Shown: piece by piece, positions 19,945-27,334 of the stretch
How the letters are laid out: the number at the start of each line of letters is the position of its first letter
Numbering within the stretch: the first letter of the stretch is position 1
DNA from: an uncultured Paracoccaceae bacterium
Lineage (GTDB): Bacteria; Pseudomonadota; Alphaproteobacteria; Rhodobacterales; Rhodobacteraceae
Reading direction: 5' to 3'
Assembly: GCA_947503925.1 (NCBI GenBank)
Contig: CANNFQ010000015.1
Coordinates: 1 to 64,000 of the forward strand
Length of the DNA: 64,000 bases
Position numbers and translations under genes: made by a program
Notes under the pieces: model-generated
Seen by the model: the letters and a program-made list of their open reading frames with translations, nothing else
What the model was told of the DNA's origin: nothing
Databases searched by the model: none

Positions 19945-20649
19945 TCAGCTTGCCGCGCTTGGCCCATCCAATCGGCTGGATGTGTCTTCGCGCAACTGAC
20001 CCGCCGCCATTTTTGCAAATGCGGCGCGCCATCGGTCGGCAAGTTCTGGCATGTCTGCCAGTTGGGCGGCCTCGGCAGGGGCGATGCGCTTGGTCAGGCG
20101 TGCCTGGGTCACCTTTCGGACTGTCCAGTTCGGTTGCGGTCGCTCAATCAGGCTGATCTTGTCACCCACGGCAACGGTGCCTTTTTCTAGCACACGATAG
20201 TACCAGCCTGTGCGCCCGGTCTTCTGAAAAAGATACGGCATCTTGTCTTGGCCCGTATGCCGCGCAAGTTTCCAACACGGCTGCCGTCCCTGCGAAATCT
20301 GCACGGTCGCACTGCCGAGTTGCAATATGTCGCCGATGCACAGATTGTCTTCGGTCAGGCCAATGGTCGAGATATTTTCACCAAAGGCCGCCGCTGTGGT
20401 CGCCTGCGCCAAAAGTCCTTCTGCTTCCCACGCTGCATAGTGATCGAAAGCGTAGTGATGAATGGCCTTGTCCGCCCCGCCATGCACGGCAAGATCCGCT
20501 TGGGCATCCCGCACAAACCCGTGAGGGCCTATGTCCTGCGGTCCGGCAACGATATCCTTTTGAATGGCAGAAGGTGGTTTGCCGGGCCAACGGTCTGCGA
20601 CCTTGCCAACATACAAGCCATCAATCCGCGCGGTCAAATGTGGTGTCAT
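19945..20649 (-). CDS. MOSC domain protein (YiiM-like)
   Basis: 234 residues from ATG 20649, which overlaps the MarR stop as ATGA. It has the MOSC beta-barrel pattern (GPHGFVRDAQADLAVHGGADKAIHHYAFDHY, FGENISTIGLTEDNLCIGD) with the conserved Cys in GRQPCWKLARHTG, and a C-terminal helical extension as in YiiM proteins that detoxify N-hydroxylated bases with a molybdenum cofactor. Co-translation with a cysteine-rich MarR suggests stress-controlled expression. It converges on the FadB-like gene with a 12-bp gap. Confidence 0.85.
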   Translation of the reverse strand: MTPHLTARIDGLYVGKVADRWPGKPPSAIQKDIVAGPQDIGPHGFVRDAQADLAVHGGADKAIHHYAFDHYAAWEAEGLLAQATTAAAFGENISTIGLTEDNLCIGDILQLGSATVQISQGRQPCWKLARHTGQDKMPYLFQKTGRTGWYYRVLEKGTVAVGDKISLIERPQPNWTVRKVTQARLTKRIAPAEAAQLADMPELADRWRAAFAKMAAGQLREDTSSRLDGPSAAS

Positions 20650-21197
20650 GCTGATACTTTTTCCTGATGTTCGACACAGATCTTCATGGTGTCGGCCTGC
20701 GCTAGGGGGAGTGAAAGAAGCTTGCAATATGCAGACGTTCCTTCTGTCTGATGAAACCTGCAGGTTTTGCACTGGCCGAATGATTTCGCATCATTCAACG
20801 ACAACGCCTGCCGCAAAGTCTGGCCCAACCCGTTTTCCAGCGCACACACTTCGGTGTCCGTAAGTTTCGTCAGAGCAACCGCAACGACGCCGTCGTCTTC
20901 CAGCATAACGGTTCCCGCTTTTGTCAGCGCATAGGAGATCGAGCGTTTATCGCTGTCAGAGCGCACCTCTTCAACGTAGCCCTTGCGCAAAAGCGCCTTG
21001 AGAGTTTGCGACATGGTTCCGCGCGTTGTCCCAAGAAATTCTGCAACATGTGACGGCGACCGTGAAAACCGGTTGGCATCGCGCAGATATTCAAGCGCCG
21101 ATCTTTGTACTGGATTCAGATCGCCGGCCCAACTGCTGGCGCTGTCCAGTCTTGCCAATCTGTTCATCAGGGCGCGGATGTTTAGGTTTGACGTCAT
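20646..21197 (-). CDS. MarR family regulator with C-terminal cysteine cluster
   Basis: 183 residues. The winged helix (LNPVQRSALEYLRDANRFSRSPSHVAEFLGTTRGTMSQTLKALLRKGYVEE, then SDKRSISYALTKAG) is followed by an unusual tail with CKTC, a later Cys (AYCKLL) and a final Cys (KICVEH), separated by about 10-20 residues. Such spacing could bind an Fe-S cluster or zinc, or act as a redox switch (inference). It shares ATGA with the MOSC gene and is divergent from the exported protein gene at 21288. Confidence 0.88.
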   Translation of the reverse strand: MTSNLNIRALMNRLARLDSASSWAGDLNPVQRSALEYLRDANRFSRSPSHVAEFLGTTRGTMSQTLKALLRKGYVEEVRSDSDKRSISYALTKAGTVMLEDDGVVAVALTKLTDTEVCALENGLGQTLRQALSLNDAKSFGQCKTCRFHQTEGTSAYCKLLSLPLAQADTMKICVEHQEKVSA

Positions 21198-21287: not shown

Positions 21288-22040
21288 ATGCCCAACAAGA
21301 CAGCTTTCACATCAGTCGCTTTCGCGCTTGCCGCTGGTACAACCTTTGCAGGCGGCAACCACGCAGCCGACTTGCAGGACGCAATCCAGTCGCCCGCCGA
21401 TACCGGCAAAGTCGCGGCCTTTGATGTTCTGGCTGCCCATGCACATCGGACCGGCACTACAGTGACCTTTCACATGACCACGAATGGAACCGCCGGGTCA
21501 CAGACCCCTGCCGCCACCGGCGCGGTTGGTGGGTCCGACGTGTGGTCCTATGTCTGGCCCACATCGCTGGATCCCTCCACCGTTGGTTTCGAGGGCGGCA
21601 CGGGTATTCTGGCGATGGCTGCCACCAGCCACCCCGACTTTGACGACACGCCTTTGTTTGATGAAAACCGCGACGGCGACCCGACTAATGACGGCGTGGA
21701 ATGGCACAGCCATTGGGTTGTCCTGACCCCGACGGAGGCGTGCGGCCCCGGTGCTTTGGCCGTGCGCGACATCCCCGAAGGCAGCACCCCAAAGCTGCCC
21801 GCGACCTGGCCCGGCTTTCCCATTTTTCTGGACAGCCCCGGCTTTACGCCCCTGTTTGATGGCCCCGAAATCAGCGTCACCGCAGGATTTGCCAGCGATG
21901 TGGAGCTGTCAGGCGTCGCCTATGACGGCGTGACAGCGGCCCTGCGAGTGAACGCCAATATTCACGCGCCGCTCTTGTGCGTGACAGATGTCTTTGACGT
22001 GGCCTCCGGCGATCTAAGCCTGCCCGGCGTTTTGGAGTGA
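21288..22040 (+). CDS. Exported protein of unknown function
   Basis: 250 residues with a Sec signal peptide (MPNKTAFTSVAFALAAGTTFAGG, cleavage around 21-23). The mature part contains HMTTNGTAG, an acidic metal-binding-like stretch DENRDGDPTNDGVEWHSHW, and repeated beta-strand-type segments. I do not recognise the family. A good ribosome-binding site (AAGGAG) precedes the ATG. It is divergent from the cysteine-rich MarR gene and 57 bp upstream of a CPGC redoxin, so MarR control and a periplasmic stress role are possible (inference). Confidence 0.75.
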   Translation: MPNKTAFTSVAFALAAGTTFAGGNHAADLQDAIQSPADTGKVAAFDVLAAHAHRTGTTVTFHMTTNGTAGSQTPAATGAVGGSDVWSYVWPTSLDPSTVGFEGGTGILAMAATSHPDFDDTPLFDENRDGDPTNDGVEWHSHWVVLTPTEACGPGALAVRDIPEGSTPKLPATWPGFPIFLDSPGFTPLFDGPEISVTAGFASDVELSGVAYDGVTAALRVNANIHAPLLCVTDVFDVASGDLSLPGVLE

Positions 22041-22097: not shown

Positions 22098-22571
22098 ATG
22101 CAAGCCCCTGAACTTTCCATTTCAAAATGGTTCAACACCGATAAAGACATCGCACTGGCAGATTTACGCGGCAGGGTAGTGGTTATTGAAGCGTTTCAAA
22201 TGCTCTGTCCGGGGTGCGTTATTCATGGAATCCCCCTCGCCCAGACAATTCGTATGACTTTTCCAGAAGACAAAGTTGTCGTTATCGGTCTGCACACGGT
22301 TTTTGAGCACCACGAGGCGATGACGCCTGTGGCCCTGAAGGCCTTCTTACACGAATATCGCATCACCTTTCCGGTCGGGGTCGATAATCAGGGGTCCAGT
22401 CCTTTGCCTGACACCATGACAGCGTACGGCATGCGCGGCACGCCAAGCCTGATTGTCGTGGATCAGCGGTGCCAGATTGCCGCGCATCACTTCGGTCAGG
22501 TTTCTGAAATGCAGATCGGAGCGCAGATTGCGACGCTTTTGGCAACTGGCCAGTCAAAGGCTGGTACGTGA
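22098..22571 (+). CDS. Redoxin/thioredoxin-like protein with CPGC motif
   Basis: 157 residues of the AhpC/TSA-redoxin fold: LADLRGRVVVIEAFQMLCPGCVIHG carries the CPGC active site, and GMRGTPSLIVVDQ contains the cis-Pro region. There is no signal peptide, so it is cytoplasmic. It lies between an exported unknown and the PadR-controlled thiol-rich operon and may supply thiol-disulfide exchange for it (inference). It could alternatively be a peroxidase of the redoxin family. Confidence 0.82.
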   Translation: MQAPELSISKWFNTDKDIALADLRGRVVVIEAFQMLCPGCVIHGIPLAQTIRMTFPEDKVVVIGLHTVFEHHEAMTPVALKAFLHEYRITFPVGVDNQGSSPLPDTMTAYGMRGTPSLIVVDQRCQIAAHHFGQVSEMQIGAQIATLLATGQSKAGT

Positions 22572-22648
22572 TCCGACGGCAATCAGGCTTGGCGTGCCGA
22601 AAATTTAGAGTAATTTGACTTGACGCATCGACCATCGAGGTATATGTG

Positions 22649-23026
22649 ATGCGCATGAACAAGATTGCCAACACCCCCAACCTGCTCGACCCCGATTACT
22701 GGGGGAATACGATCAAGATGAGCCTGTCAAAGTTTTTTATCCTTTGCGTCTTGCAGGATGAGGAATTGCATGGCTACGACATCGCCAAATCGGTTGAACG
22801 GCGTACAGATGGATGCTGCACCCCGCGCGAAGGGACGATCTATCCGGTGCTCAAACAATTTACCGAAGGCGGCTATGTCACCTTCAAATCCGAAACCGTC
22901 TCGGGGCGGGAACGCAAGATCTATGCGGTGACAGATAAGGGGCGCGAAGCGTTCAAGATCGCTTTGGCCGAATGGACGAAAATCACCCGCTGCCTTCAGG
23001 AATGTTCCTGCGCCACCTGCCCGTAA
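22649..23026 (+). CDS. PadR-like regulator rich in cysteine
   Basis: 125 residues from ATG 22649 (GAGG lies 9 bp upstream; GTG 22646 and ATG 22655 are alternatives). PadR winged helix: FFILCVLQDEELHGYDIAKSVERR, then REGTIYPVLKQFTEGGYVTF and GRERKIYAVTDKG. Unusually, a Cys-Cys pair (DGCCTPREG) lies at the start of the recognition region, and the C-terminus is CLQECSCATCP. These cysteines could bind a thiophilic metal or metalloid, or form disulfides, making it a thiol sensor (inference). It precedes the GST/C-S lyase operon and a strong palindrome at 23051-23066. Confidence 0.85.
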   Translation: MRMNKIANTPNLLDPDYWGNTIKMSLSKFFILCVLQDEELHGYDIAKSVERRTDGCCTPREGTIYPVLKQFTEGGYVTFKSETVSGRERKIYAVTDKGREAFKIALAEWTKITRCLQECSCATCP

Positions 23027-23050
23027 AAAAATTTGCCCTCATACTTTGAT

Positions 23051-23066
23051 GATCGATGCATCGATC
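23051..23066. promoter_or_regulatory. Perfect palindrome upstream of GST gene (candidate PadR operator)
   Basis: GATCGATGCATCGATC is a perfect 16-bp inverted repeat in the 62-bp gap between padR-like and the GST gene. The flanks TTGAT and ATCAA extend it with a one-base bulge. A related sequence, GACGCATCGACC, occurs just upstream of the PadR gene itself (about 22622-22633), consistent with autoregulation. Confidence 0.5.
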
Positions 23067-23088
23067 TATCAAGAAGGAACCCTCAAAC

Positions 23089-23790
23089 ATGAAAATCGTC
23101 AGCTTCAAAATCTGCCCATTCGTCCAGCGTGTCACGGCCCTGCTGGAAGCCAAGGGCATCGACTATGATCTGGAATTCATCAGCCTTAGCGACAAACCCC
23201 AGTGGTTTTTGGACATCTCGCCCAATGCGCAGGTGCCGCTTCTGATCACGGACGAAGGCGAGGCGCTGTTTGAAAGCGATGCTATCGTTGAATTCATCGA
23301 AGAAGCCTATCCGCCGCTGCGCCCCAACCTGACGCCGGTTGAAAAGGCCCGCGAACGCGCGTGGAGCTATCTAGCAACCAAACATTACCTGCCCCAATGT
23401 GGCGCGCAGCGCAGCGCCGATCAGGACATCCTGGCCGAGCGCAGCCAGAAGCTGAACAAGGCCTTCGACACGATCGAGGCACAGCTGGGCGACACCAAGT
23501 TCTTTGCTGGTGATGACATTGGCATGGTCGACGTGGCTTGGCTGGTGCTGCTGCACCGCGCCTGCATAATCGAACAGAAAAGCGGTTATGACTTCCTTGG
23601 TAACCGACCCAAGCTGAAGGCCTGGCAGAATAATATCATGCAATCTGGTTTGCCCGCCAAATCGGTCGCTGCTGATTTCGTCGCCGATTTCTCGGACTTC
23701 TATTTGTCCGACCAGACGTTGTTAGGTCGGGGTGCCGCCGCCAAGAGCCACGAATTCAGCGACAGCACACCGCTGGCGATGTGCTGCTGA
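23089..23790 (+). CDS. Glutathione S-transferase-like protein with C-terminal Cys-Cys
   Basis: 233 residues from ATG 23089 (AAGGAA upstream). The thioredoxin-like N-domain has the Cys-type active site ICPFVQRV, as in Omega-class and lignin-degrading GSTs, then NAQVPLLITDEGEALFESDAIVEFIEEAYP. A helical C-domain follows (DDIGMVDVAWLVLLHR). The protein ends in MCC, which is not typical of GSTs. Omega-type GSTs can reduce pentavalent methylarsenicals and deglutathionylate substrates (family knowledge). The neighbouring gene product also ends in CC. Confidence 0.85.
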   Translation: MKIVSFKICPFVQRVTALLEAKGIDYDLEFISLSDKPQWFLDISPNAQVPLLITDEGEALFESDAIVEFIEEAYPPLRPNLTPVEKARERAWSYLATKHYLPQCGAQRSADQDILAERSQKLNKAFDTIEAQLGDTKFFAGDDIGMVDVAWLVLLHRACIIEQKSGYDFLGNRPKLKAWQNNIMQSGLPAKSVAADFVADFSDFYLSDQTLLGRGAAAKSHEFSDSTPLAMCC

Positions 23791-23810
23791 GCGCAGGAAG
23801 GGACCAAGAC

Positions 23811-25031
23811 ATGAGCATGTTTGACACCGCTCCCGCCAAGACCGGCGATACCTTTGTGCGGCACAATCCGAACTATCTGAAAATGTTCTATGGCACCGAT
23901 CAGGTCACCCCGTTCTGGGTGGCCGATATGGATTTGCCCATTGCTGACCCAATTAAGGACGCGTTGCGATATGTCGCAGAGCGCGGCCAATTTGCCTATG
24001 AGTTCAACTCAGATGGCATCTTTGCTGCGATCTCAGGCTGGTTTGCCCGCCGCCATGATCTGACCCTCAAACCTGAGAACTTCGTGCCCTTCCCCGGAGT
24101 TCTGACCGCGATATCTCTGTTGATCCGCGAGTTATCAAACGAGGGCGACGGCGTGCTGATGCAAGTCCCCGCCTACCACCAGTTCGGCAAGATCATTACT
24201 TCTGCCGGGCGCGAGGCGGTCAAATCTTCACTGATCAACGAGGGCGGCCACTATAGCATGGATTTCACTGATCTTGAGGCAAGAATGGCCCCGGATAACA
24301 TCAAGCTGATGCTGCTGTGCAACCCGCACAACCCTGTGGGACGCGTTTGGACAGCCGAGGAATTGGCCCGCGTCGTTGAGATCGCCGAGCGACACAACGT
24401 CACCATCATCAGCGACGAAATCCACGCCGATATCATCTATGGTGATCGCCGCTTTACTAGCCTGTCGTCGCTGGACAACCAGCGGCATGTTTCCGTGCTG
24501 GGATCACCTGCCAAGACCTTTGGCATGCAAAGCATCTCGAACGGATACATCTACACCGAAAATGAGGACATTCTGAAACGGATGAAGCACGTCGAGGATT
24601 CCATGTACCTGGGCCACGGCAATGCCTTCACAACCTTTGCCACCATCGCGGCCTATGAAAAGGGCGACGCTTGGGTCGATGAATTATTGGCTTATCTGCA
24701 AGGGACGGTTGACTGGATCGGCGCGTATCTGGCGGATGAATTGCCCAGCGTGAAAATGTCCCCGGTTGAGGGCACTTATCAGGTATGGTTGGACTGCTCC
24801 GGCACTGGCCTGGCAGGCGACGCGCTTAAGGCGAAACTGGGCGAAGCAGGTTTTGGCGCAACACCGGGCACCTGGTTCGATGAAACGGCGACGCAGTTCA
24901 TCCGCATCAATATCGCCGCCCCGCGTCGTGATATCCAAGAGGCGGTCAAACGTTTCAGAGCGACGCTGGATCAAGTCACCGCGCAGGACTCGGCACCTTG
25001 TACCGACACCTCAACGAACGCCTGCTGTTAG
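23811..25031 (+). CDS. PatB/MalY-like cystathionine beta-lyase (C-S lyase) with C-terminal Cys-Cys
   Basis: 406 residues from ATG 23811, preceded by GGAAGGG. It is a fold-type I PLP enzyme of the MalY/PatB group: PFWVADMDLPIADPI at the start, NPHNPVGRVWTAEEL, ISDEIHADIIYGDRRFTS, and SPAKTFGMQSISNGYIY with the Schiff-base lysine. Members cleave C-S bonds of cysteine conjugates or cystathionine. The last residues, STNACC, form a vicinal cysteine tail like that of the upstream GST. A GST followed by a C-S lyase suggests a conjugate-processing pathway (inference). Confidence 0.88.
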   Translation: MSMFDTAPAKTGDTFVRHNPNYLKMFYGTDQVTPFWVADMDLPIADPIKDALRYVAERGQFAYEFNSDGIFAAISGWFARRHDLTLKPENFVPFPGVLTAISLLIRELSNEGDGVLMQVPAYHQFGKIITSAGREAVKSSLINEGGHYSMDFTDLEARMAPDNIKLMLLCNPHNPVGRVWTAEELARVVEIAERHNVTIISDEIHADIIYGDRRFTSLSSLDNQRHVSVLGSPAKTFGMQSISNGYIYTENEDILKRMKHVEDSMYLGHGNAFTTFATIAAYEKGDAWVDELLAYLQGTVDWIGAYLADELPSVKMSPVEGTYQVWLDCSGTGLAGDALKAKLGEAGFGATPGTWFDETATQFIRINIAAPRRDIQEAVKRFRATLDQVTAQDSAPCTDTSTNACC

Positions 25032-25061
25032 GCGGCAATCAGCACGGCCGTCCCGGCTGGG

Positions 25062-25832
25062 ATGGCCACATCCGCAAGGGAAAGCACCATCCTTGAAGGC
25101 AAGACAGCGCTGGTGACCGGCGGTTCCAGTGGCATCGGGTTTGAAACAGCCAAGGTTCTGCGAGACAACGGCGCACGTATTGCAGTTACCGGACGAGACG
25201 CCGCTAAACTTGAAGCAGCACGTAAAGCTTTGGGTGGTGATGCCATCGCCATTCGGGCGGACATCCGCAAGATGGATGATCTGGATCGGATGCAATCTGA
25301 GATAGGCACATCTTTTGGAACATTGGATATTCTGTTTGCAAATGCAGGCGTTGCTTTCAACACGCCGCTGGGGAAAACCGATGAAGCGATGTATCATCGC
25401 CTGATGGATGTAAATGTTAAGGGCACGTTTTTTACCGCCCAGTCGGTTCTTCCGCTGATGACCCAAGGCGCATCAATCATTCTCAACACATCCTGGCTGA
25501 ACCAGATCGGCACCCCAAAAAAAGCACTTCTCTCAGCCTCAAAGGCGGCCGTGCGTTCCTTCGCCCGCGTGATGTCGGCGGAACTTCTGGATCGTGCGAT
25601 CCGTGTAAATTGCGTCAGCCCGGGCACGATCGAGACGCCGATCCACCGGGGGCCAGATGAAACGGATGCGCATTTCCAGGCCTATGTAGCGCGTATCGGA
25701 GAACAAGTGCCCGCAGGCCGCATTGGCAAACCTGCGGACATCGCGGCGGCAGTTCTTTTTCTGGCAAGTGACGCGTCTCGCTACATGTTGGGTGCCGAGA
25801 TGGTCATTGATGGGGGGCGTGCAGAGCTTTGA
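25062..25832 (+). CDS. SDR family protein lacking the catalytic Tyr
   Basis: 256 residues. It has cofactor motif TGGSSGIGFETA, NAG, VNVKGTFFTAQS and VSPGTIETPIH, plus a C-terminal SRYMLGAEMVIDGG. At the YxxxK active site the sequence reads ALLSASKAAVRS, so Leu replaces the catalytic Tyr while Lys is kept; a Ser is present upstream in NTSWLN. It may have lost classical dehydrogenase activity or use another acid (inference). The ribosome-binding site is weak. It is fourth in the PadR-linked cluster, 30 bp after the C-S lyase. Confidence 0.85.
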   Translation: MATSARESTILEGKTALVTGGSSGIGFETAKVLRDNGARIAVTGRDAAKLEAARKALGGDAIAIRADIRKMDDLDRMQSEIGTSFGTLDILFANAGVAFNTPLGKTDEAMYHRLMDVNVKGTFFTAQSVLPLMTQGASIILNTSWLNQIGTPKKALLSASKAAVRSFARVMSAELLDRAIRVNCVSPGTIETPIHRGPDETDAHFQAYVARIGEQVPAGRIGKPADIAAAVLFLASDASRYMLGAEMVIDGGRAEL

Positions 25833-25875
25833 CACGCCAAGCAATCAACGCCCGAATGATACTGGACATCCAAGC

Positions 25876-26940
25876 ATGACGACCATGAGCTATGACATCG
25901 TCATCATCGGTGGCGGGCAGGCTGGATTGTCTGCCGCCTATTTCCTCCGCAGGACCGGTTTGCGTTTTGTGATCCTTGACGACAGCGACGCGCCGGGCGG
26001 TTCATGGCCTGGGACCTGGGACTCCTTACGGCTGTTTTCGCCGGTGGATTACAGTTCCATCGCCGGCTGGCAGATGCCGCAGGGCGCAGATGAATATCCG
26101 CAAAAAGATGAGTTCATCGCCTATCTGGCTGCCTATGAAGCTCGCTATAATCTCCCAATCGAACGACCTGTGCGCGTGACCAATGTCAGCCGGGCTGAAG
26201 ACCGGTTCATCGTTCAAACCAACAAAGGTGCCTTTACCACCCGCGTGGTCATCAGCGCGACCGGCACCGCTCAGAACCCGTTTGTCCCCGAATATGACGG
26301 GCGGGGCAGCTTTGAAGGCGTTCAAATGCACTCCGCCGACTATCGCAATCCTGCGCCCTTCGCCGGACGACGCGTGGCCATCATCGGCGCGGGTAATTCA
26401 GCGGCACAGATCCTTGCCGAAGTCTCGCTGGACGCCGATACGCTGTGGATCACGCCGGAAGAGCCACGTTTCAATCCTGATGACGTCGACGGGCGGCATA
26501 TCTTTGGCGTGGCCACACAAAGATTTACGCAAACGCAATCGGAGAACAAGGCGACGGTGAACACCTCGCGCTTTTCGCTGGGCAGCATCGTGATGGTCGA
26601 AAGCGTTCGTGAGGCGCGCGCACGCGGCGATGTGTTGCACGCCCTGCGACCCTTCACCCGCCTGACGTCTTCAGGTGGCATATGGCCGGACGGCACCAAA
26701 CAAGATTTCGACGCCATCATCTGGTGCACCGGCTTTCGCGCAAACCTCGCGCATTTGCAGCCCATGCTGCCTGTGGAGGACGGTAAGGCGCGCACAGACG
26801 GCGGACCTCGCGCGCTGGACGTTCCGGGGCTGTGGTTGGTTGGCTATGGCGGCTGGACCGGCTATGCCTCGGCCACAACCTACGGCGTCACCAAGACAGC
26901 GCGGCAGGCAGTCAAGGAAATTGCAGCCTATCTACCCTAA
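25876..26940 (+). CDS. ArsO-like NAD(P)H-dependent flavin monooxygenase
   Basis: 354 residues from ATG 25876; the longer upstream frame overlaps the SDR out of phase. FAD motif GGGQAGLSAAYFLRR and NADPH motif GAGNSAAQILAE flank FSPVDYSSIAGWQMP and ATGTAQNPFVPEYDG, and the C-terminus has WCTGFRANLAHLQPM and LWLVGYGGWTGYASATTYGV. These match the flavoproteins called ArsO in arsenic-resistance operons, whose exact reaction is not firmly established. Its presence with a Cys-type GST and Cys-Cys tails points to metalloid or thiol chemistry (inference). Confidence 0.82.
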   Translation: MTTMSYDIVIIGGGQAGLSAAYFLRRTGLRFVILDDSDAPGGSWPGTWDSLRLFSPVDYSSIAGWQMPQGADEYPQKDEFIAYLAAYEARYNLPIERPVRVTNVSRAEDRFIVQTNKGAFTTRVVISATGTAQNPFVPEYDGRGSFEGVQMHSADYRNPAPFAGRRVAIIGAGNSAAQILAEVSLDADTLWITPEEPRFNPDDVDGRHIFGVATQRFTQTQSENKATVNTSRFSLGSIVMVESVREARARGDVLHALRPFTRLTSSGGIWPDGTKQDFDAIIWCTGFRANLAHLQPMLPVEDGKARTDGGPRALDVPGLWLVGYGGWTGYASATTYGVTKTARQAVKEIAAYLP

Positions 26941-26980
26941 AGGCGGCTCCCGCCAGCAACACACACGAACAGGAACCATA

Positions 26981-27334
26981 ATGGCCAGCACAATCCTCTA
27001 TCTCCTGAAATCCAAATTTCCGGATCCCCAGCATGGCGATCAGCTGTTCTTTTGCCCGCAATGCGCTGCGATAGAAGGGTTACTGGCAATGTTTCCAGAC
27101 GTGCGCCAAAATCTGGATGTCCGTTATGTTAATTTCTCGCGACCCCGTGGGGACATGCCTGAATACGTAGAAGACAATCAATCTTGCCCACAGATTGTCC
27201 TACCTGGTGGTGACGACGCCCACTCTGCTGGGCTCAGCGAACCCGGACAAAGTGCGACCCGGCGTATTGAAGACCATGCGGACGTGCAGCGCTACTTGAT
27301 TGACAAATTTGGTCTTTCACATCCGCACCCATAG
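26981..27334 (+). CDS. DUF3088-like thioredoxin-fold protein
   Basis: 117 residues from ATG 26981, preceded by AGGAACC; the longer frame reads through arsO-like sequence out of phase. The N-terminus SKFPDPQHGDQLFFCPQCAAIEG has a CxxC motif after the first strand, then a later conserved NQSCPQIVLPGG and HADVQRYLIDKFGL. This is the pattern of DUF3088 proteins, which are predicted to have a thioredoxin-like fold. It ends the thiol-rich operon and could be a dedicated reductase or metallochaperone for it (inference). Confidence 0.75.
   Translation: MASTILYLLKSKFPDPQHGDQLFFCPQCAAIEGLLAMFPDVRQNLDVRYVNFSRPRGDMPEYVEDNQSCPQIVLPGGDDAHSAGLSEPGQSATRRIEDHADVQRYLIDKFGLSHPHP

Follow-up and report, generated by a model that had tools for sequence, protein, structure and literature searches.

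We analysed a 64,000-nucleotide stretch of DNA (the window; positions 1 to 64,000 of contig CANNFQ010000015.1 from an uncultured marine Paracoccaceae bacterium) and found that it contains a six-gene operon led by a PadR-family regulator. We interpret this segment as an arsenic-type detoxification operon under the control of a PadR-family repressor instead of ArsR, a reading to which we give a probability of roughly 0.68. Descriptions of arsenic resistance operons mostly have ArsR as the repressor. If our interpretation is correct, then repressors of another family, with an operator of their own, stand before established arsenic genes in both alpha- and gammaproteobacteria, which would constitute a new sensor class that is also of interest for biosensors. 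It would also provide a testable function for four so far unassigned proteins encoded by such operons, namely a glutathione S-transferase (GST) and a C-S lyase that both end in Cys-Cys (CC), a short-chain dehydrogenase/reductase (SDR) that lacks the catalytic Tyr, and a DUF3088 protein.

PadR relatives, their operator and the genes behind them

Relatives of the PadR regulator were collected from 84,980 species genomes with peptides that left out its Cys pair, which gave 122 relatives of which the best 80 loci (spanning up to 8 kb on each side, contig permitting) were kept for comparisons. Within 5 kb downstream of padR on the same strand, and with query proteins that were taken from these same loci and so match themselves, we observed an ArsK-related major facilitator superfamily (MFS) protein in 44 loci, an ArsV-like flavoprotein in 38, ArsH in 25, PatB in 9, GST in 8, ArsK in 6, ArsO in 4, an ArsP_1 permease in 2 and ArsM in 1. 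At least one of these families is present downstream in 77/80 loci, ArsH, ArsK, ArsM, the ArsK-related MFS protein or the ArsP_1 permease in 58/80, and ArsH, ArsK or ArsM alone in 31/80. Matches elsewhere in the loci are rare (2 of 28 for ArsH, 1 of 42 for the flavoprotein, 2 of 4 for the permease), which serves as an internal control against chance. Single linkage at 75% identity yields 10 clusters, with an arsenic transporter, ArsH or ArsM in seven, strictly ArsH, ArsK or ArsM in three, and the flavoprotein in eight. Note that only in a few cases were the names of the families compared with curated cut-offs. The NCBIfam cut-offs are passed by ArsH of L012 and L054 and by ArsK of L045; the L010 MFS protein has ArsK as its best model at a score below cut-off (168.6 vs 400), and that of L054 is recognised at the MFS_1 level only. 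The L016 permease passes PF03773 (ArsP_1), with SO_0444 and SaoE as its best NCBIfam models, both below cut-off. In Photorhabdus namnaonensis (L075) the PadR gene precedes an ArsM-like methyltransferase ending in CGC, whose best model is arsenite methyltransferase, again below cut-off (153.5 vs 263).

The PadR protein has a GCC motif, with Cys 57-58 in the 126-residue form (54/55 in 123-residue numbering), and a CLQECSCATC tail. When the 80 relatives and the window protein are aligned, the two positions of the Cys pair are Cys in 80/81 and 81/81 proteins, and a Cys is present in the last helix (113/116) in 59/81. The tail has CC within its last 12 residues in 37/81 proteins and at least two Cys in its last 20 residues in 53/81. 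A first-pass annotation had listed these PadR motifs together with a GST ending in MCC, a PatB-like protein ending in NACC, a CxxC motif in DUF3088 (here CPQC) and a CPGC redoxin, all of which are present, but the PadR tail does not conserve its last Cys, which is gone in L006-L010. A structural model (predicted local distance difference test score, pLDDT, 89.8; 76 sequences) places the Cys pair in a loop flanked by helices 43-53 and 62-74, of which the second is the predicted recognition helix by its position ahead of the wing. ArsR of plasmid R773 has its arsenite site within the DNA-binding domain, so that both repressors carry cysteines by their DNA-binding part, and two ligands suffice for methylarsenite (PMC11868830).

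A palindrome of the form T[CTA]GA-N3-TC[AGT]A is found within 200 bp upstream of padR in 64/81 loci, downstream of padR in 55/81 and at either place in 72/81, relative to chance levels of 1.3 and 1.1 in shuffles and 2.6 in random regions of the same loci; the motif was derived from the same data, which makes these statistics post hoc, and the excess is nonetheless very large. In the window the upstream palindrome occupies the space between TTGAC and TATA, as do most of the listed upstream sites, and this placing between -35 and -10 fits a repressor. The window padR ATG lies 8 bases past the -10. Since the first in-frame padR start is 11-12 bases past TAT in 42/80 loci (14/80 have another distance, and 24/80 have no site under the stricter pattern used), the sequences suggest that the padR mRNA is nearly leaderless. 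The genome that contains the window (hereafter the host genome) has a single PadR of this type. A large PadR regulon in that genome was considered and rejected, with 7 pattern sites observed versus 3 in a reversed control and two of the other six, when inspected, lying inside open reading frames (ORFs).

ArsR-controlled ars operons with arsV-arsK/arsW contain the same flavoprotein-MFS pair, with a CC-rich tail, that stands behind PadR in many relatives. A plasmid search with the flavoprotein gave 123 records; four among 40 listed were inspected, together with a Roseomonas record that the search with PadR had given. Plasmids of Ensifer, Shinella and Bosea have the order ArsR-flavoprotein-MFS, with the Ensifer MFS protein annotated as ArsK, with ACR3 and ArsC alongside in Shinella and Bosea, and with ArsH as well in Bosea. 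The Streptomyces plasmid has the pair near ArsO, ArsR and ACR3, and the Roseomonas plasmid has the order PadR-flavoprotein-MFS, with chrA four genes onward on the opposite strand. By gene order, PadR appears to occupy the place of ArsR ahead of this pair, and the PadR-linked flavoprotein is a likely ArsV, with which its gene context is consistent. PMC10080717 describes ArsV as oxidising methylarsenite and lists ArsW and ArsK as methylarsenical efflux proteins; ArsV/ArsW (Chen 2021) and ArsK (Shi 2018) are taken up in the citing papers PMC10080717, PMC9144182 and PMC11719878. The window operon differs from these ArsR-controlled operons by its PadR, by its own operator, and by having neither an exporter nor an ArsV-like protein in the operon.

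A role for PadR in metal resistance has precedent, because the PadR-type ChrI goes with chrA1 in Bacillus cereus and is chromate-induced (PMC2936356). ChrI likewise is a PadR-type protein that regulates an operon for resistance to a metal oxyanion; as that source describes it, ChrI is set apart by basic residues, not a Cys pair, being implicated for chromate and by an operon for chromate efflux, not arsenic genes. PMC6016940 gives a predicted network link from an arsenic-resistance protein to a PadR-like protein in Exiguobacterium, whereas in PMC12652892 and PMC6662855 the letters padr belong to author names or foreign words. No arsenic-responsive PadR was described among the matches listed or read in the open-access literature, which leaves out many subscription papers. 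The claim that no described system has this gene set stands insofar as no description of it (C-S lyase, GST, arsenic resistance operon) was found in the open-access literature, but the set is one local form of a wider family of arsenic-linked gene groups under PadR control.

Anatomy, conservation and enzymes of the operon

The operon and its control elements are laid out as follows:

22620..22646, + strand: promoter and operator of padR, TTGACGCATCGACCATCGAGGTATATG; the core of the palindrome (22625-22641) sits between -35 TTGAC and -10 TATA
22655..23026, + strand: PadR-family regulator; CxxxCxCxxC tail, and GCC preceding the recognition helix; GTG at 22646 is the mechanical ORF start
23040..23066, + strand: second operator copy, 5' of gst; its core (23043-23059) departs from the pattern at one position
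23089..23790, + strand: Omega-like GST; CPFVQR site, MCC end, PF13409/13417
23811..25031, + strand: PatB-like pyridoxal phosphate C-S lyase; NACC end, SPAKTFG lysine retained
25062..25832, + strand: SDR (PF13561); catalytic Tyr replaced by Leu
25876..26940, + strand: ArsO-family flavin monooxygenase, above the NCBIfam cut-off
26981..27334, + strand: DUF3088 protein; CPxC (CPQC) and a second Cys-Pro, weak thioredoxin-like model

The starts of padR, gst and patB (22655, 23089 and 23811) were picked over mechanical ones by ribosome-site and operator position. The six genes follow one another head to tail at 22655-27334, all on the + strand, with intergenic gaps of 20-62 bp, and profile matches bear out the gene order that had been read from the sequence. 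Specifically, the regulator is of the PadR type (PF03551, 75.4 bits vs a gathering cut-off of 27), with no ArsR-type regulator of ars operons among the six genes; the lyase is a class I/II aminotransferase that falls slightly below TIGR04350 (334.2 vs 340 bits); the monooxygenase exceeds the curated ArsO cut-off (NF040505, 480.6 vs 425 bits), in agreement with its earlier labelling as ArsO-like; and the last protein matches PF11287 (101.9 vs 26.4 bits).

The full row PadR-GST-PatB-SDR-ArsO-DUF3088 recurs in L004, L005 and L008, with the L008 PatB stopping before its tail. L010 has PadR, an ArsV-like flavoprotein and an MFS protein followed by GST-PatB-SDR-DUF3088; L011 and L013 have PadR-PatB, as does L014, where SDR and DUF3088 are nearby on the opposite strand; and L006, L007 and L009 have shortened versions. 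At E 1e-15 the PadR is present in 2/394 genomes of the window's family, its own included, and the operon is therefore patchy. One genome (G294) has two copies of the PadR region, L007 and L008, with the GST of one cut after about 50 matching residues. Phage copies were considered and discarded on one weak match.

The GST, described beforehand as Omega-like, has both the Cys site (CPFVQR, with an aligned Cys-Pro-Phe) and best PDB matches to GSTO1 entries by which that class was judged; it shares the Cys-Pro-Phe site with human GSTO1 and differs in being bacterial, 233 residues long and CC-tailed. GSTO1 reduces methylated arsenicals. The lyase has PatB and MalY C-S lyases as its best PDB matches and shares their catalytic lysine, which is conserved in 9/9 aligned copies, and adds a CC tail. 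PatB was tried as a marker and set aside, being found in 3/119 relatives at E 1e-130 and in 2/318 class genomes at E 1e-120, with the host genome counted in both. The SDR had been called Tyr-less, and indeed Leu replaces the catalytic Tyr in 6/6 aligned copies (the window and five orthologues), versus Tyr in the reference 4bmn, which puts it outside the classical YxxxK definition. The one other annotated ArsO case that we inspected is beside ACR3 on the Streptomyces plasmid, whereas here ArsO is under PadR. The DUF3088 model is of low confidence (pLDDT 61; best Foldseek E 0.009) and has thioredoxins and GSTs among its matches, a weak indication that the protein may be thioredoxin-like.

Cys-Cys tails on unrelated proteins

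CC within the last four residues is observed in 28 of the 855 closed ORFs of at least 150 residues in loci L001-L083, and all 28 are PadR, GST, PatB or flavoprotein. In this count L001 is the window itself, L003 duplicates L008, and the greedy choice of ORFs included only 45 padR genes. Chance as the source of these tails was set aside on account of this confinement to four families. In the window, 4/169 mechanical ORFs of at least 100 residues have CC in the last six residues, namely the GST, PatB and two others that we take for chance ORFs. The flavoprotein is carried by 39 loci and is CC-tailed in 31 of its 33 readable ORFs; the very small genome of Candidatus Nesciobacter abundans (L034, 616 kb chromosome) retains PadR and a CC-tailed flavoprotein. 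In the PadR loci the GST ends in MCC in 5/8 cases (L004, L005, L006, L008, L009), and the PatB tail is present in 6/8 aligned operon copies and missing in L008 and L010. PatB ends ahead of the CC tail in L008, L009 and L010, and remnants of the tail follow its stop codon in two of these, L008 and L010. The L006 copy has an internal shortening and also no tail; it and the L009 copy are not among the eight aligned. A Vibrio homologue (47%) has no tail. Thus the expectation that orthologues share the tails holds for their recurrence in GST, PatB and the flavoprotein, but not for several PatB and some GST copies, and by this comparison the CC tail is a recurrent addition that can be lost. A selenocysteine at the TGA before the L008 PatB tail remnant was rejected, given that L009 (G799) has TAA there and that the tail is lost otherwise elsewhere; no SECIS (selenocysteine insertion sequence) search was made.

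GST orthologues outside the operon were found in 11/385 class genomes and 11/398 phylum genomes (the host genome and a congener being in both) and in one of five plasmid records. They end in CC in 14/16 readable cases, with L100 and L102 lacking it and L106 and L127 unreadable. In L101, L120, L122-L125 and L128 the CC-tailed orthologue adjoins an extracytoplasmic function (ECF) sigma factor gene (annotated as SigZ in L128, the others by sequence reading), and the sigma factor ends in CxxC in 6/7, the exception being L120. An ArsR-like regulator ending in CCADE(R/K)C is also nearby in L122 and L123, and in L099 the CC-tailed GST is divergent to an ArsR-type helix-turn-helix protein ending in RGRDCC.

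Mercuric reductase has vicinal cysteines at its C-terminus, a feature in common with these tails on unrelated folds. The proposal that CC tails deliver metalloid as they do in mercuric reductase remains an unproven analogy. CC tails on unrelated enzymes would be a simple, testable sign of trivalent-arsenic handling.

Proposed mechanism and alternative explanations

We infer the following course of events for an arsenic operon under PadR. Without inducer, a PadR dimer would occupy both palindromes, the one within its own promoter, between -35 and -10, and the second copy before gst. A trivalent arsenical, probably an organic one such as methylarsenite that needs two thiols, would bridge the Cys-Cys pair ahead of the recognition helix; for arsenite or antimonite, Cys116 could perhaps supply a third ligand. 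The arsenical-bound repressor would then release the DNA. Thiol adducts may be reduced or exchanged by the Omega-like GST and by the DUF3088 protein, putatively thioredoxin-like, the C-S lyase may act on cysteine adducts or supply sulfide, and ArsO would oxidise trivalent to pentavalent arsenic, with the CC tails capturing arsenic close to the active sites. Export would occur in trans, by an ArsP_1-type permease that is encoded apart from the operon, downstream of an ArsR-like gene. Specifically, the host genome has an ArsP_1-like permease (73% to the PadR-linked permease of L016) directly behind an ArsR-like gene, identified by reading its sequence, that has a vicinal Cys pair near its C-terminus (...SQCCEG...). 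ArsH is present in the host genome outside the operon. The same genome gave no match to ACR3 (ArsB, ArsC and others were not searched for), no ArsM above cut-off with seven weaker methyltransferase matches, and no relative of the L010 MFS protein at E 1e-20. This gene outfit could reflect exposure to organic rather than inorganic trivalent arsenic.

A bolder version, which we regard as speculative and unlikely, is that a new class of arsenic-sensing repressor (PadR fold, vicinal Cys preceding the recognition helix, 21-23 bp palindrome of its own) runs a mercapturate-like arsenic pathway in Rhodobacteraceae. In this scheme the GST would make thiol adducts of organic arsenicals, the CC-tailed lyase would cut the cysteine adduct and leave sulfur on the arsenic (thioarsenicals), and ArsO would oxidise the product. 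On this reading PadR, GST, PatB and the flavoprotein, four unrelated folds, would have come convergently to use CC tails for handing over arsenic.

The first-pass annotation had left the choice between metalloid and electrophile detoxification. PadR proteins commonly respond to small organic molecules, and PadR could sense a reactive organic compound such as a quinone by its Cys pair, after which the GST would conjugate it, the C-S lyase split the conjugate, and the SDR and flavoprotein finish a mercapturate-type route, a scheme with which the window set of GST, C-S lyase, SDR and monooxygenase is compatible on paper. However, the same PadR family and operator precede ArsH, ArsK or ArsV-like genes in most of the 80 relatives, the SDR has no catalytic Tyr in 6/6 copies, and CC tails would point to soft-metal binding over conjugation. 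We therefore consider this explanation unlikely; comparable independent support for the electrophile half was not found, whereas the metalloid half is well supported by the ArsH, ArsK, ArsV-like, ArsP_1 and ArsM neighbours, by the common operator, and by the flavoprotein-MFS pair behind ArsR.

That the operon answers in general to toxic metals, thiophilic or not (Hg, Cd, Sb, Te, Se, Cr), without specificity for arsenic, is in our view distinctly unlikely. Cys pairs bind many soft metals. A Cupriavidus PadR copy is followed by a permease, the Roseomonas copy has the chrA noted above, ArsK is also credited with antimonite resistance (title of Shi 2018, as cited in PMC9144182), and the chromate-linked ChrI is itself of the PadR type (PMC2936356). 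Yet ArsH, ArsM and ArsO, which are families named for arsenic, are behind this PadR (mer, cad and ter were not searched for). A sulfur-metabolism operon, in which sulfur compounds would be the substrates of the C-S lyase and redox proteins and the Cys tails would carry sulfane sulfur, is very improbable, for even though PatB-type lyases release thiols or sulfide and a CC-tailed PatB is all that is recognised behind PadR in L011 and L013, it gives no account of the ArsH, ArsK, ArsM and ArsP_1 genes that follow this PadR and its operator in the relatives.

Several observations weigh against the arsenic interpretation itself. ArsO is the only named arsenic gene in the window operon, with no exporter, arsenate reductase (ArsC), ArsH or ArsM among its six genes, and no arsenic link in print was found for these GST, PatB or SDR families. 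The neighbour tally involves self-matching queries, and its counts are inflated by many related Halomonadaceae among the 80 loci, as seen in the 10 clusters of which only three are strictly ArsH, ArsK or ArsM; three loci have no tallied family (L041, with just 1.2 kb of downstream DNA, L061 and L078), and an operator of this form is absent in 9/81. Neighbours of the GST orthologues outside the operon are mostly not recognisable, by eye, as arsenic genes. Finally, because the PatB tail is lost or the protein shortened in four relatives (L006, L008, L009, L010) and the GST CC is missing in 3/8 PadR loci (L007 truncated, L010 with an early stop, L015 without CC), either the tails are not essential in those relatives or the cassette is decaying.

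Just upstream of the operon is one further thiol protein:

22098..22571, + strand: CPGC redoxin (AhpC/TSA); no operator found

Because no operator is seen in front of it, this redoxin is probably outside the PadR regulon; it is kept nearby in 4/80 loci. Further upstream, a MarR-family regulator with a C-terminal Cys cluster (CKTC...C...C) is present on the - strand at 20646-21197, and the block that it forms with a protein that we label MOSC-like (19945-20772) and a hypothetical protein (21288-22040) is conserved in 6/80 loci.

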